Shown: positions 17,743 through 42,093 of the stretch, piece after piece
Layout: each line of letters begins with the position of its first letter
How positions within the stretch are numbered: position 1 is the stretch's first letter
Source of the DNA: Bacteroidales bacterium
GTDB lineage: Bacteria; Bacteroidota; Bacteroidia; Bacteroidales; JAADJA01
Direction of reading: 5' to 3'
Assembly (NCBI GenBank): GCA_030596605.1
Contig: JAUVJI010000019.1
Location: 1-42,199 of the forward strand
Length of the DNA: 42,199 bases
Translations under genes and position numbers: made by a program
Notes under the pieces: generated by a model
Databases searched by the model: none
What the model was told of the DNA's origin: nothing
What the model saw: only the letters and a program-made list of their open reading frames with translations

Positions 17743-19020
17743 ATGCTTGAAATAAAAGTTCCCAGCCCGGGTGAATCAATAACCGAAGTACAGATTGCAA
17801 CATGGCTTGTTAGTGATGGTGATTTTGTTGAAAAAGACCAGGAAATCGTAGAGATCGATTCAGATAAAGCTACATTAAGTATCAGTGCCCAAGAAGATGG
17901 AAAGATCAAAATATTGATCGAAGAGGGTGAAACCGTTAAAGTGGAATCAATAATTGCATCTATTGATACCAGTGTGAAAGGGGAGAAAAAGATACAAGAA
18001 TCAAGTACTAAGACAAAAGATATTAGTACAGAGACAAAAGAAAATAGTGAAAAAATAAAAGAGTCTGAAGCAGTTAAAGAAAAAATAGTTGAAAACAAAT
18101 CGGCAAGCAAACCAATTGAAACGGAATTAAACATTTCACCTTTGGCTAAAAAACTCATGCAGGCCAATAATGTTTCGGAGGCTGATTTTATTAATTTCAT
18201 GAAGGGTTACCGTGTAGGGAAAAAAGATGTTGATTTCTTTTTATCACAAAAAGATAATGTCAAATCGACAACAAAATCGTGGGGAGGAACAAGGGACTCT
18301 GAGAGGAAAAAGATGTCGACACTTCGGTTAAAACTTTCTGAACGGTTGGTATCTGTTAAAAATGAAACAGCCATGTTAACCACCTTCAATGAGGTGAACA
18401 TGACGCCTATCATGGAAATTCGTAAAAAATACAAAGAGATTTTCAAGGAGAAACATGGTATTTCTTTGGGATTTATGTCATTTTTTACCAAGGCCGTTAC
18501 CGAAGCTTTAAATATTGTACCGGGGGTGAACGCTCAAATTGACGGCAATGAAGTGGTTTATCACAATTATGCCGATATTGGAATTGCCGTTAGCTCTCCA
18601 AAAGGTTTGATGGTTCCTGTTGTGAGGAATGCCGAGCAAATGACTCTTGCAGAGATCGAACTAAATATCAAGGAGCTTGCCAATAAGGCACGCACCAATA
18701 AAATCACCATTGATGAAATGATGGGTGGGACATTTACTATCACCAATGGAGGAGTATTTGGCTCGATGCTCTCCACACCGATTATCAATCCTCCCCAAAG
18801 TGCAATATTAGGAATGCATAATATTGTAGAAAGGCCCATTGCCGTAAATGGTAAAGTAGAAATACACCCCATCATGTATGTTGCTGTTTCGTACCATCAC
18901 CGCATCATTGACGGGAGTGAATCGGTTACTTTCCTTGTGAATGTTAAAGAAATGCTGGAAAATCCGGTAAAAATGTTATTTGGGGGAAATGAACCCGTAG
19001 AAAGTTTGTTGGGAATATAA
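17743..19020 (+). CDS. sucB: 2-oxoglutarate dehydrogenase E2, dihydrolipoyl succinyltransferase
   Basis: This 425-aa E2 core protein transfers succinyl from lipoate to CoA. Its parts in order are: one lipoyl domain (1-77, lipoylated Lys42 in EIDSDKATL); a charged, low-complexity linker (about 80-125, rich in Lys, Glu, Ser, Thr); a peripheral subunit-binding domain (about 127-165, [14 protein letters not shown]); and the catalytic acyltransferase domain (about 190-425). The active-site signature reads HHRIIDG at 385-391, where most E2 proteins have DHRxxDG. The catalytic His386 and Asp390 are present. The E3 gene is not in the window. It pairs with sucA upstream, and nadB follows 10 bp after the stop. 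Confidence 0.96.
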
Positions 19021-22359: not shown

Positions 22360-22378
22360 TATTTTGAAATTATTTAGG

Positions 22379-22432
22379 TTTTAGAAATTTGAATTTAGTG
22401 CTTATTTAGAGTTTAGGATTTAGAATTTAGTG
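22379..22432 (+). repeat. Right-type period-7 arm upstream of the carbonic anhydrase gene
   Basis: Four perfect consecutive heptamers, TTTAGAG (22405-22411), TTTAGGA, TTTAGAA and TTTAGTG (to 22432), are preceded by related TTTAGAA / ATTTGAA / TTTAGTG words from about 22380. The words are the reverse complement of those in the arms at 17601 and 20628. No matching left arm is adjacent; the nearest one in the opposite orientation is at 20628-20701. Confidence 0.65.
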
Positions 22433-22442
22433 CTTTGTAGAT

Positions 22443-24385: not shown

Positions 24386-25333
24386 ATGATAAAATACCTT
24401 CACCATAGTGAGATTGATAAAAAAAAATGGGATGCCTGTATAAAAGAATCATTTAACGGAATGGTTTATGCCAGCTCCTGGTATCTTGATATTGTGGGAG
24501 ATGAATGGGAAGCGCTGATTGAAAATGATTATGAAAGTGTTTTTCCGTTGGTATACGGAAGTAAGTGGGGTATTCATTATTTATACCAGCCGGTTTTTAC
24601 CCAGCAATTGGGTGTTTTTTCCAAAAGCCTTTTATCACCCGAAGTAGTAAATGAATTTCTTATCAATATCCCCAATAAATTTAAGTTCGCCGAAATAAAT
24701 CTTAATACTTTTAATAAAGCACATACCGGTAAATATAAATTAAAAGAATGGCTTAACTACGAACTTGATTTAATTAATTCATACGATAAACTATTTCAAA
24801 ACTATTCCACAAATCTGAAAAGAAATCTTAAGAAAGCGGAAAAAAATCATCTCTCTATTTCAAAAAATGTTAAGCCTGAAGAAATCATTAAAATTTTCCG
24901 GGAAAACCGTGGCGGTAAAATCAAAAATTTATCAGATGATGATTATTTGAAATTACAGCGTTTAGGCTATATGGGTATTTATAAAGGGCTGATTCAAACA
25001 TATGGTGCCTATACTGACAAAAATGAGTTTTGTGCCGGTGCAATATTTGCTAAAAGCAATAAAAAGATGATATTTCTATTTTCTGGACTTACCCTGGAAG
25101 GAAAAGAGAAAAATGCCATGGCTTTTTTAATTGATTCATTTATTAATGAACATGCACAAAACCATCTGACACTTGATTTTGAAGGATCGAACGATCCGAA
25201 CCTTGCTAGATTTTATAAAAGTTTTGGTTCTGTAAAATGCACTTATCCCCACATCTTAATCAATAACCTTCCAATAGTTACAAGGCAAATAGTCTATCTG
25301 ATAAAATTGATTAGAAGATTAACCAAAAATTAA
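24386..25333 (+). CDS. FemAB/GNAT-like acyltransferase
   Basis: This 315-aa protein resembles the BioF2/FemAB-like acetyltransferases (peptidoglycan or surface-glycan acyl transfer, GNAT fold). It opens with the substrate segment NGMVYASSWYLDIVGDEWEA and continues with the basic amphipathic helix YSTNLKRNLKKAEKN (about 148-162) typical of this group. The C-terminal GNAT-like half includes GAYTDKNEFCAGAIFAKSNK and LDFEGSNDPNLARFYKSFG. It has no signal peptide. It follows the deacetylase-like gene by 10 bp and is probably cotranscribed. Acyl donor and acceptor are unknown. The GxxExxY cassette begins 8 bp after its stop codon. Confidence 0.7.
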   Translation: MIKYLHHSEIDKKKWDACIKESFNGMVYASSWYLDIVGDEWEALIENDYESVFPLVYGSKWGIHYLYQPVFTQQLGVFSKSLLSPEVVNEFLINIPNKFKFAEINLNTFNKAHTGKYKLKEWLNYELDLINSYDKLFQNYSTNLKRNLKKAEKNHLSISKNVKPEEIIKIFRENRGGKIKNLSDDDYLKLQRLGYMGIYKGLIQTYGAYTDKNEFCAGAIFAKSNKKMIFLFSGLTLEGKEKNAMAFLIDSFINEHAQNHLTLDFEGSNDPNLARFYKSFGSVKCTYPHILINNLPIVTRQIVYLIKLIRRLTKN

Positions 25334-25340
25334 GTTTATT

Positions 25341-25366
25341 GGCTGAATAATATTTTGATGTGCTGG
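25341..25366 (+). repeat. Left inverted end of the GxxExxY cassette
   Basis: This 26-bp sequence begins GGCTGAATAATATTTTGATG. It matches the reverse complement of 25885-25910 at 25 of 26 positions; the match stops at both edges. Confidence 0.9.
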
Positions 25367-25402
25367 TGGATAACATACTTACTTTTGTTTATACTTAATT
25401 TC

Positions 25403-25441
25403 ACGCAAAGCTACAAAAGGAAGTCGCAAAACAACGCAAAG
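25403..25441 (+). repeat. Left CGCAAAG array
   Basis: CGCAAAG at 25404-25410, a degenerate TACAAAAG at 25412-25419, CGCAAAA at 25425-25431 and CGCAAAG at 25435-25441. Spacing is near 10-11 nt, about one DNA turn. The last copy ends 8 bp before the GxxExxY start codon, so it covers the place where a ribosome binding site would be. Confidence 0.75.
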
Positions 25442-25449
25442 AAAACAAC

Positions 25450-25827
25450 ATGACAGAAAACGAAATCTCATATAAAATAATTGGAGCAGCTATAGAAATT
25501 CACAAGAGTATTGGTCCTGGTTTATTAGAGTCTGCCTATGAAAGTGCTTTAACTTTTGATCTTAGGGAATTAGGTTTTGAAATAAAACAACAATATCCTA
25601 TGCCTTTTGTGTATAAAGATGTTAAACAAGATATTGGATACAGGATTGACATAATAGTAAATAATATGGTAATTATTGAAGTCAAATCTATTGAATCTTT
25701 AGCACCTGTCCATTTTGCTCAAACACTCACATATTTAAGATTATCAGGACTTAAATTAGCACTATTGATAAATTTCAACAGCAAAATTCTAAAAGGGAAT
25801 ATACACAGAATTGTAAATAATCTATAA
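25450..25827 (+). CDS. GxxExxY protein (PD-(D/E)xK nuclease-like)
   Basis: This 125-aa protein has the signature GLLESAY at 24-30 that names the GxxExxY family (TIGR04256, PF13366). A PD-(D/E)xK-like core follows: D67 in GYRIDIIV, then E77-V-K79 in VIIEVKS, and a Gln in AQTLTYLRL (Q91). The catalytic pattern D-x9-E-x-K is intact, so nuclease activity is possible but has not been established for this family as far as I know. There is no signal peptide or membrane segment. The gene is the only one in a cassette with inverted ends and facing heptamer arrays; neighbours on either side are housekeeping or surface genes with no link to it. Confidence 0.9.
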   Translation: MTENEISYKIIGAAIEIHKSIGPGLLESAYESALTFDLRELGFEIKQQYPMPFVYKDVKQDIGYRIDIIVNNMVIIEVKSIESLAPVHFAQTLTYLRLSGLKLALLINFNSKILKGNIHRIVNNL

Positions 25828-25831
25828 TAGT

Positions 25832-25871
25832 CTTTGCGGCATCTTTGCGTTTAATCTTTCCGTTCTTTGCG
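25832..25871 (-). repeat. Right CTTTGCG array
   Basis: CTTTGCG at 25832-25838 and 25843-25849, a degenerate CTTTCCG at 25856-25862 and CTTTGCG at 25865-25871. Spacing is 9-13 nt. This is the reverse complement of the word in the left array, so the two arrays face each other across the gene. It begins 5 bp after the GxxExxY stop codon. Confidence 0.75.
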
Positions 25872-25884
25872 AGAAATAAAGAAT

Positions 25885-25910
25885 CCAGCACATCAAAATA
25901 TTATTTAGCC
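25885..25910 (-). repeat. Right inverted end of the GxxExxY cassette
   Basis: This is the inverted partner of 25341-25366 and reads CCAGCACATCAAAATATTAT on the plus strand before ending in TTAGCC. A TACATTTG box for upp lies 20 bp further on. Confidence 0.9.
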
Positions 25911-25930
25911 TGAGAATGAATTATTTTTCT

Positions 25931-25982: not shown

Positions 25983-26633
25983 ATGATAAATAATTTAGGT
26001 GAAAATAAATCCATTCTTAGTCAATACCTTGCTGAAATCAGGAATATAAATATCCATGGTGATAGTATGCGATTCAGGAGGAACCTTGAACGAATCAGTG
26101 AGATAATTGCCATTGAAATAAGCAAAACGCTTCGTTACGAAACAGAGGAAGTAATTACTCCTTTAGGAAGCGCCAAAGTACCTGTTTTGAAGGAATACCC
26201 GGTACTGATTCCGGTGTTGCGTGCCGGATTGCCAATGCACCGAGGTTTGCAAAACATCTTTGATAAGTCGGCAAGTGCATTTATTTCCGCATATCGAAAA
26301 GCTGAAAAAAACGAAAAATTCATCATAAAAATAGAATATATTTCAGCACCCGATCTGTCAGGAAAAACAATCATCCTGGCTGATCCAATGCTGGCCACAG
26401 GATCCTCAATAGTTGCTGCATATAAAGAAATTGTAACGAGAGGCAAGCCAAAACATATACATATTGTTGTTGTCATTGCAAGTATGGAGGGAATTAATTA
26501 TATTAAAAAACATCTTCCTGATAAAAATATTACGCTTTGGGTAGGCGCCATTGATGATGAACTTACAGCACAAGCATATATAGTCCCTGGATTAGGCGAT
26601 GCCGGCGATCTGGCTTTCGGCAGTAAAGATTAA
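25983..26633 (+). CDS. upp: Uracil phosphoribosyltransferase
   Basis: This 216-aa pyrimidine salvage enzyme makes UMP from uracil and PRPP. The PRPP-binding motif is ILADPMLATGSS at 131-142. The conserved PVLRAGLPMHRGL segment is at 77-89, and the uracil-binding region near the C-terminus reads YIVPGLGDAGDLAFG. Length is normal. It stands alone behind the GxxExxY cassette. Confidence 0.96.
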   Translation: MINNLGENKSILSQYLAEIRNINIHGDSMRFRRNLERISEIIAIEISKTLRYETEEVITPLGSAKVPVLKEYPVLIPVLRAGLPMHRGLQNIFDKSASAFISAYRKAEKNEKFIIKIEYISAPDLSGKTIILADPMLATGSSIVAAYKEIVTRGKPKHIHIVVVIASMEGINYIKKHLPDKNITLWVGAIDDELTAQAYIVPGLGDAGDLAFGSKD

Positions 26634-41980: not shown

Positions 41981-42093
41981 TTTCTCCGTGTCTCTTTGTG
42001 TCTCCTTTGCGGCACTTTGTGAAATAGCCCTGCCTGCCGCAGGCAAGTGTTACACAGAGTTGCACAAAGAAGACACAGAGTTGCTCAAAGAAA
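41981..42093. repeat. Gene-less inverted array of CTTTGTG/CTTTGCG words
   Basis: Left arm 41981-42021 contains CTCCGTGT, CTCTTTGTGT, CTCCTTTGCGG and CACTTTGTG in steps of about 10 nt. Right arm 42048-42090 contains ACACAGAG, TTGCACAAAG, ACACAGAG and TTGCTCAAAG, i.e. the same words reversed. The centre holds a perfect 6-bp hairpin TGCCTG-CCG-CAGGCA (42031-42045). There is no open frame. The rest of the gene-free tail (41857-41980 and 42094-42199) shows nothing I can interpret. Confidence 0.65.

Follow-up and report, generated by a model that had tools for sequence, protein, structure and literature searches.

The 570-bp segment at positions 25341-25910 of the window, by which we mean the whole analysed stretch of 42,199 nucleotides from a Bacteroidales bacterium, is very probably a mobile insertion cassette (MIC). 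It has the 26-bp ends of an ISL3-family insertion sequence (IS) of the ISAon1-like group, a GxxExxY gene replaces the transposase gene, and the unit would be moved in trans. We favour this reading because the ends recur in other units and in an autonomous IS, many sister copies are flanked by 8-bp duplications, relatives have the site unoccupied, and a cassette has multiplied although its gene is disabled. Two points count against it: the window copy lacks a duplication, and the search of its own MAG for an ISL3 transposase was negative. The features are as follows.

25341..25910, no strand: the whole proposed mobile insertion cassette, 570 bp, missing at the same site in 12 relatives
25341..25366, + strand: left terminal inverted repeat GGCTGAATAATATTTTGATGTGCTGG, matching the right end at 25/26 positions, 2 mismatches to the consensus
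25885..25910, - strand: right terminal inverted repeat, reading GGCTAAATAATATTTTGATGTGCTGG on the - strand, 1 mismatch to the consensus
25450..25827, + strand: passenger gene for a 125-aa GxxExxY protein (TIGR04256; PF13366, PD-(D/E)XK superfamily), from profiles and motifs
25400..25441, + strand: upstream array of CGCAAAG-type words, from reading the sequence and from gene-specific flank words in the genus
25830..25873, - strand: downstream array of inverted words (CTTTGCG), from reading the sequence and from gene-specific flank words in the genus
24386-25333: conserved ORF upstream of the cassette
25983-26633: upp, on the other side of the cassette

A repeat search gave two arms of 26 nt, complementary at 25/26 positions and with 518 nt between them; when the surrounding 1.7 kb was shuffled 30 times, inverted matches of 26 nt did not go beyond 22/26. 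The family consensus of the end is GGCTAAATWTTATTTTGATGTGCTGG. Compared across 158 distinct ends, positions 1-25 mostly show a base agreement of 0.9-1.0, with lower values at positions 6, 9 and 10 (0.5-0.8), and the bases outside the 26 bp one of about 0.3-0.55; the ends were chosen by similarity to the 26-mer, and the agreement inside it is partly by construction. Apart from the GxxExxY gene, no sizeable ORF lies between the ends; the cassette contains no transposase, and the Y1 (HUH) transposases carried by some sister cassettes have no counterpart in the window cassette. The near-perfect inverted ends, their sharp edges and the single-gene content, all noticed in a preliminary description of this DNA, are thus borne out.

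The insert is missing in 12/12 relatives in which the locus was found: the spacing between the upstream ORF and upp is 84-129 bp there vs 653 bp here. Since these relatives have an unoccupied site, the cassette was gained in the window's lineage. In the close relative G008, whose flanks share about 92-94% DNA identity with ours, the alignment runs to window position 25337 and resumes at 25912, and 11 unrelated bases lie between the aligned flanks. The window copy itself has no target-site duplication, its flanks AGTTTATT and TGAGAATG mismatching at 5/8 positions. The few bases adjoining the left end are not the same in the window genome and G008, which fits a small change at the left junction, and such a change may be the reason for the missing duplication.

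The ends belong to a multi-copy family. When up to three mismatches are allowed, the window's own genome contains 10 copies of the left end, vs 0 in the reversed control, and the consensus end is present in 9/17 genomes of the genus, again with 0 control matches. An exact search with a slightly degenerate pattern, in a collection with one genome per species, returned at least 116 stretches, nearly all from MAGs of Bacteroidales or other Bacteroidota. The distance to a contig end is about 70-300 bp for many copies, a pattern that multi-copy repeats, which break assemblies, should produce. The units with these ends contain other GxxExxY genes, RAYT (Y1) genes, a transposase, or no gene at all, the last being MITEs. 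The check put forward in the preliminary description, a search for the ends around other GxxExxY genes, therefore succeeded and extended to other cargo; together with the 12 relatives without the insert, this supports its suggestion of a non-autonomous mobile cassette. Plasmid and phage records held no similar DNA and the 26-bp ends are absent from viral contigs, and the search for a plasmid or phage vehicle was thus negative. A separate observation concerns contig C186 of the same genome, where the opening codons (MAKFYFDVL...) of a 348-aa ORF are made up of a solitary consensus-perfect end (L044:5452-5477), which may therefore have been co-opted as coding sequence.

Among 47 scorable pairs of ends, 14 have a perfect 8-bp target duplication and 7 more match at 7/8 positions, compared with chance rates, from flanks exchanged between units, of about 0.1% and 0.2%, respectively. 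In the window's own genome, the cassette on contig C81, carrying another GxxExxY gene (protein 54% identical), has AAATATTA on both flanks, and the one on C152, carrying a Y1 transposase gene, has ATTAATTT. Pairing ends split over contigs yielded 5 further perfect 8-bp duplications in G002, G003 and G004.

A candidate for the driver was found in genome G298, where a 1510-bp unit (L137, on the same contig as L271) has GGCTAAATCTTATTTTGATGTGCTGG at both ends. It encodes a DDE_Tnp_ISL3 protein related to ISAon1_downstr, together with an ISAon1_upstream protein. The transposase scores 209.8 against the NCBIfam ISAon1 model, below the cut-off of 250, and thus represents a divergent group; the unit's own target duplication is absent. 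The complete single-contig genome G355 contains six related IS copies of 1658 bp with ends GGCTAATTCCTATTTTGAGGTGCTGG, whose transposase is 35% identical to that of L137, and perfect 8-bp duplications flank 6/6 of them. The same genome has at least 11 MITEs of 279-343 bp (L366-L376) with ends matching its IS, 3 of them with perfect duplications, and this coexistence of autonomous ISL3-type copies and MITEs makes it a good natural system for testing movement in trans, to which it also lends indirect support. Within the window's genus, G013 has the decayed C-terminus of an ISL3-type transposase next to a 26-bp end of the window type. No ISL3 transposase turned up in the MAG of the window itself, whose completeness is 87.7% and from which multi-copy IS contigs could be missing. 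In L137/L271, the right terminal repeat itself encodes STSK, the C-terminus of the transposase, as well as the stop codon of this gene.

High-scoring ISAon1 copies were rejected as the source of the ends, as the readable ones have GGGATCAGTT-type ends; window-type ends are limited to the divergent ISAon1 subgroup. A weak ISAon1 match, G002:C136, was also discarded, as inspection of its sequence revealed neither a matching end nor a transposase remnant that could be recognised. Previous work reported an 8-bp duplication for the ISL3-family transposon Tn7546 (PMC9782665), and we found no account of ISAon1 in the open-licence literature.

We propose that an autonomous relative would supply an ISL3/ISAon1-like transposase in trans, which would bind both 26-bp ends of the cassette and move it by DDE chemistry, leaving 8-bp target duplications, with the GxxExxY gene as cargo. 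The window copy itself was presumably moved by this transposase family.

There is a substantial chance, if one well short of even, that the window copy is an old locked relic, which arrived by transposition and is now immobile, with decaying ends and a gene kept for a host function. This possibility differs from our preferred explanation in present activity, not in the nature of the element. The missing target duplication, ends 1 and 2 mismatches off the consensus, the intact gene and the failure to find an ISL3 transposase in the MAG would all agree with it. However, the ends are still matched at 25/26 positions and close to the consensus, and perfect duplications flank other copies in this genome.

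In profile searches, the passenger product scored 137.6 bits against TIGR04256 GxxExxY (cut-off 35) and 128 bits against PF13366 PDDEXK_3 (cut-off 22). Its motifs G24-x-x-E27-x-x-Y30 and D67-x9-E77-x-K79 are intact, the second confirming the D-x9-E-x-K pattern read earlier from the translation. The 25 homologues compared within the genus all keep E27, D67 and K79, and Y30 and E77 are almost always retained as well. The predicted fold is a confident model (mean pLDDT 95). Among the solved structures closest to it, PD-(D/E)XK nucleases predominate, with Cas4-like and lambda-exonuclease-like enzymes first; the matches, led by the Cas4 protein SSO0001, LHK-Exo, lambda exonuclease and Cas4, are all weak (best E 1.3e-3). 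The model thus suggests that the passenger is likely a DNA-processing nuclease, and GxxExxY proteins would be expected to cut nucleic acid. No PADLOC defence family matched the passenger, a PHROGs search gave a marginal Cas4-like match and nothing more, and a PDB sequence search found no relative.

Intact passengers are under purifying selection, with dN/dS of 0.08 for C81 vs G008:C509, 0.04 for a pair in G356 and 0.14 for G356 vs G357; they are therefore functional, in or out of cassettes. GxxExxY genes are present in 15/17 genomes of the genus, at up to about 12 loci per genome. The family is common in environmental Bacteroidales, yet almost without literature: the open-licence papers that we found to contain the name GxxExxY do so in passing, and one further paper cites PF13366.

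Most GxxExxY genes in the genus do not have the 26-bp ends. Those that do fall at three places in the tree, namely the window gene, the C81 clade and L175/L178. The tree needs three changes across the bootstrap range, and its strongest branches alone also allow one origin; three GxxExxY lineages were probably captured independently. Other units with the same ends contain RAYT-like genes or lack a recognised gene. One unit in G002 exists as two copies from which the GxxExxY motif and the catalytic Asp have been lost; each has its own perfect 8-bp duplication (TTCTTTCG and AAGATCAG, respectively) in unrelated surroundings.

These distributions make it very improbable that the GxxExxY protein mobilises its own cassette by recognising the 26-bp ends, or the hairpin that they could form, and cutting DNA or RNA. 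Such a role would be in keeping with the intact PD-(D/E)XK motifs, the nuclease-like predicted fold, the purifying selection on passenger genes and the presence of a single gene in the unit. However, the same ends surround RAYT genes, a transposase and gene-free MITEs, they are missing from most GxxExxY genes of the genus, and they belong to a DDE IS group. The cassette without the catalytic Asp reached two sites with perfect duplications, although an intact copy may have helped in trans there. For these reasons, the idea raised in the preliminary description, of a long hairpin recognised by the protein itself, finds no support. Hardly credible is a third reading, in which the gene is enclosed by an RNA stem made of the two inverted ends, like that of an rRNA intervening sequence, with a role at the RNA level and not in mobility: the ends would pair as a 26-bp stem, but Rfam has no rRNA or other family in the window, and 8-bp duplications and unoccupied sites are marks of DNA transposition that refute this origin.

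Two further GxxExxY copies in the window's genome, on contigs C206 and C150 (L121:4282-4706 and L122:1-445), have a common in-frame TAG just past the motif. The two are separated by 7 synonymous and 0 nonsynonymous changes, and six of these fall within codons 41-53, a cluster that may be a recombination tract. Reassignment of TAG was rejected, as TAG ends 9/51 long ORFs in this genome.

The mobile insertion cassette that we propose has known counterparts. MIC231 of Bacillus cereus has IS231 ends and is reported to have been moved in trans experimentally, and mic-qnrD, with 24-bp ends and a 2-bp duplication, and mic-qnrS2 are further examples (PMC3913671). Our cassette resembles them in its IS-like inverted ends, the lack of an internal transposase, its passenger gene and the duplications at sister copies; movement in trans is experimental for MIC231 and deduced here from ends and footprints. 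It differs in its ISL3/ISAon1-like ends and in its cargo, a nuclease-like gene that is uncharacterised and has repeat arrays of its own, from cargo families that were captured repeatedly. As for the end structure, which the preliminary description did not know as a described system, the kind is described, as a mobile insertion cassette, and we found no report of this combination: an ISL3/ISAon1-type driver with GxxExxY cargo is new.

With the ISAon1 group of the ISL3 family (NF049916/NF049917, PF01610), the cassette shares its 26-bp ends, which differ very little from those of autonomous copies, and the 8-bp duplications seen family-wide, as in Tn7546 (PMC9782665), though not at the window copy; unlike these IS, it has no transposase gene, and the readable high-scoring ISAon1 copies have other ends. 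MITEs are likewise short and have IS-derived ends, and multi-copy gene-free sister elements share the ends of our cassette, but the latter has coding capacity in the form of an intact 125-aa gene. Our analysis adds an ISL3/ISAon1-type case to the mobile insertion cassettes and offers one concrete route of spread for the widespread GxxExxY family, with a likely driver named from ends and footprints.

RAYT/REP systems (TnpAREP; PMC2817692, PMC6006769) are similar in two respects: Y1 genes occur in sister cassettes with the same ends, and GxxExxY genes also have short repeats on both sides. On the other hand, GxxExxY is a PD-(D/E)XK protein and not an HUH enzyme, and there is no sign here of its repeats being mobilised. 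The RAYT-like Y1 genes (IS200/IS605 family) within the same 26-bp ends are at L048:5592-6446, L092:2244-3139, L099:2793-3612 and L097:2878-3694, with perfect 8-bp duplications around the L048 and L092 cassettes.

Nearly every GxxExxY gene that we read has short repeated words on both sides, often inverted between the flanks. The word varies from gene to gene and is common to both flanks of one gene; CGCAAAG, CACAGATT, CATATAAG, CATTAAGG and others occur around GxxExxY genes of the genus (L009-L020, L286-L334). For 47 genes, the 8-mers common to two flanks numbered 7.7 for flanks of the same gene vs 2.4 for those of different genes when inverted, and 17.0 vs 3.4 when direct, and 0/10,000 permutations reached the inverted total; this set includes three cassette genes, and some of their inverted matches are the outer ends. 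Besides the ISL3-type ends, the arrays form a second layer, an inner one that is independent of them. Now that the outer, IS-derived ends are separated from them, they can be studied as a feature of GxxExxY genes. One conceivable, if rather doubtful, interpretation is that GxxExxY and its inverted gene-specific arrays would constitute a self-recognising selfish module, the nuclease counterpart of RAYT/REP, which, like RAYT, would have been repeatedly captured by ISL3-type cassettes, as a mobile unit nested within a mobile unit. Other short tandem arrays in the window lie at 22370-22435, 17988-18062 and 42052-42092, the last of which (ACACAGAGTTGCACAAAGAAG) resembles the words around GxxExxY genes elsewhere.
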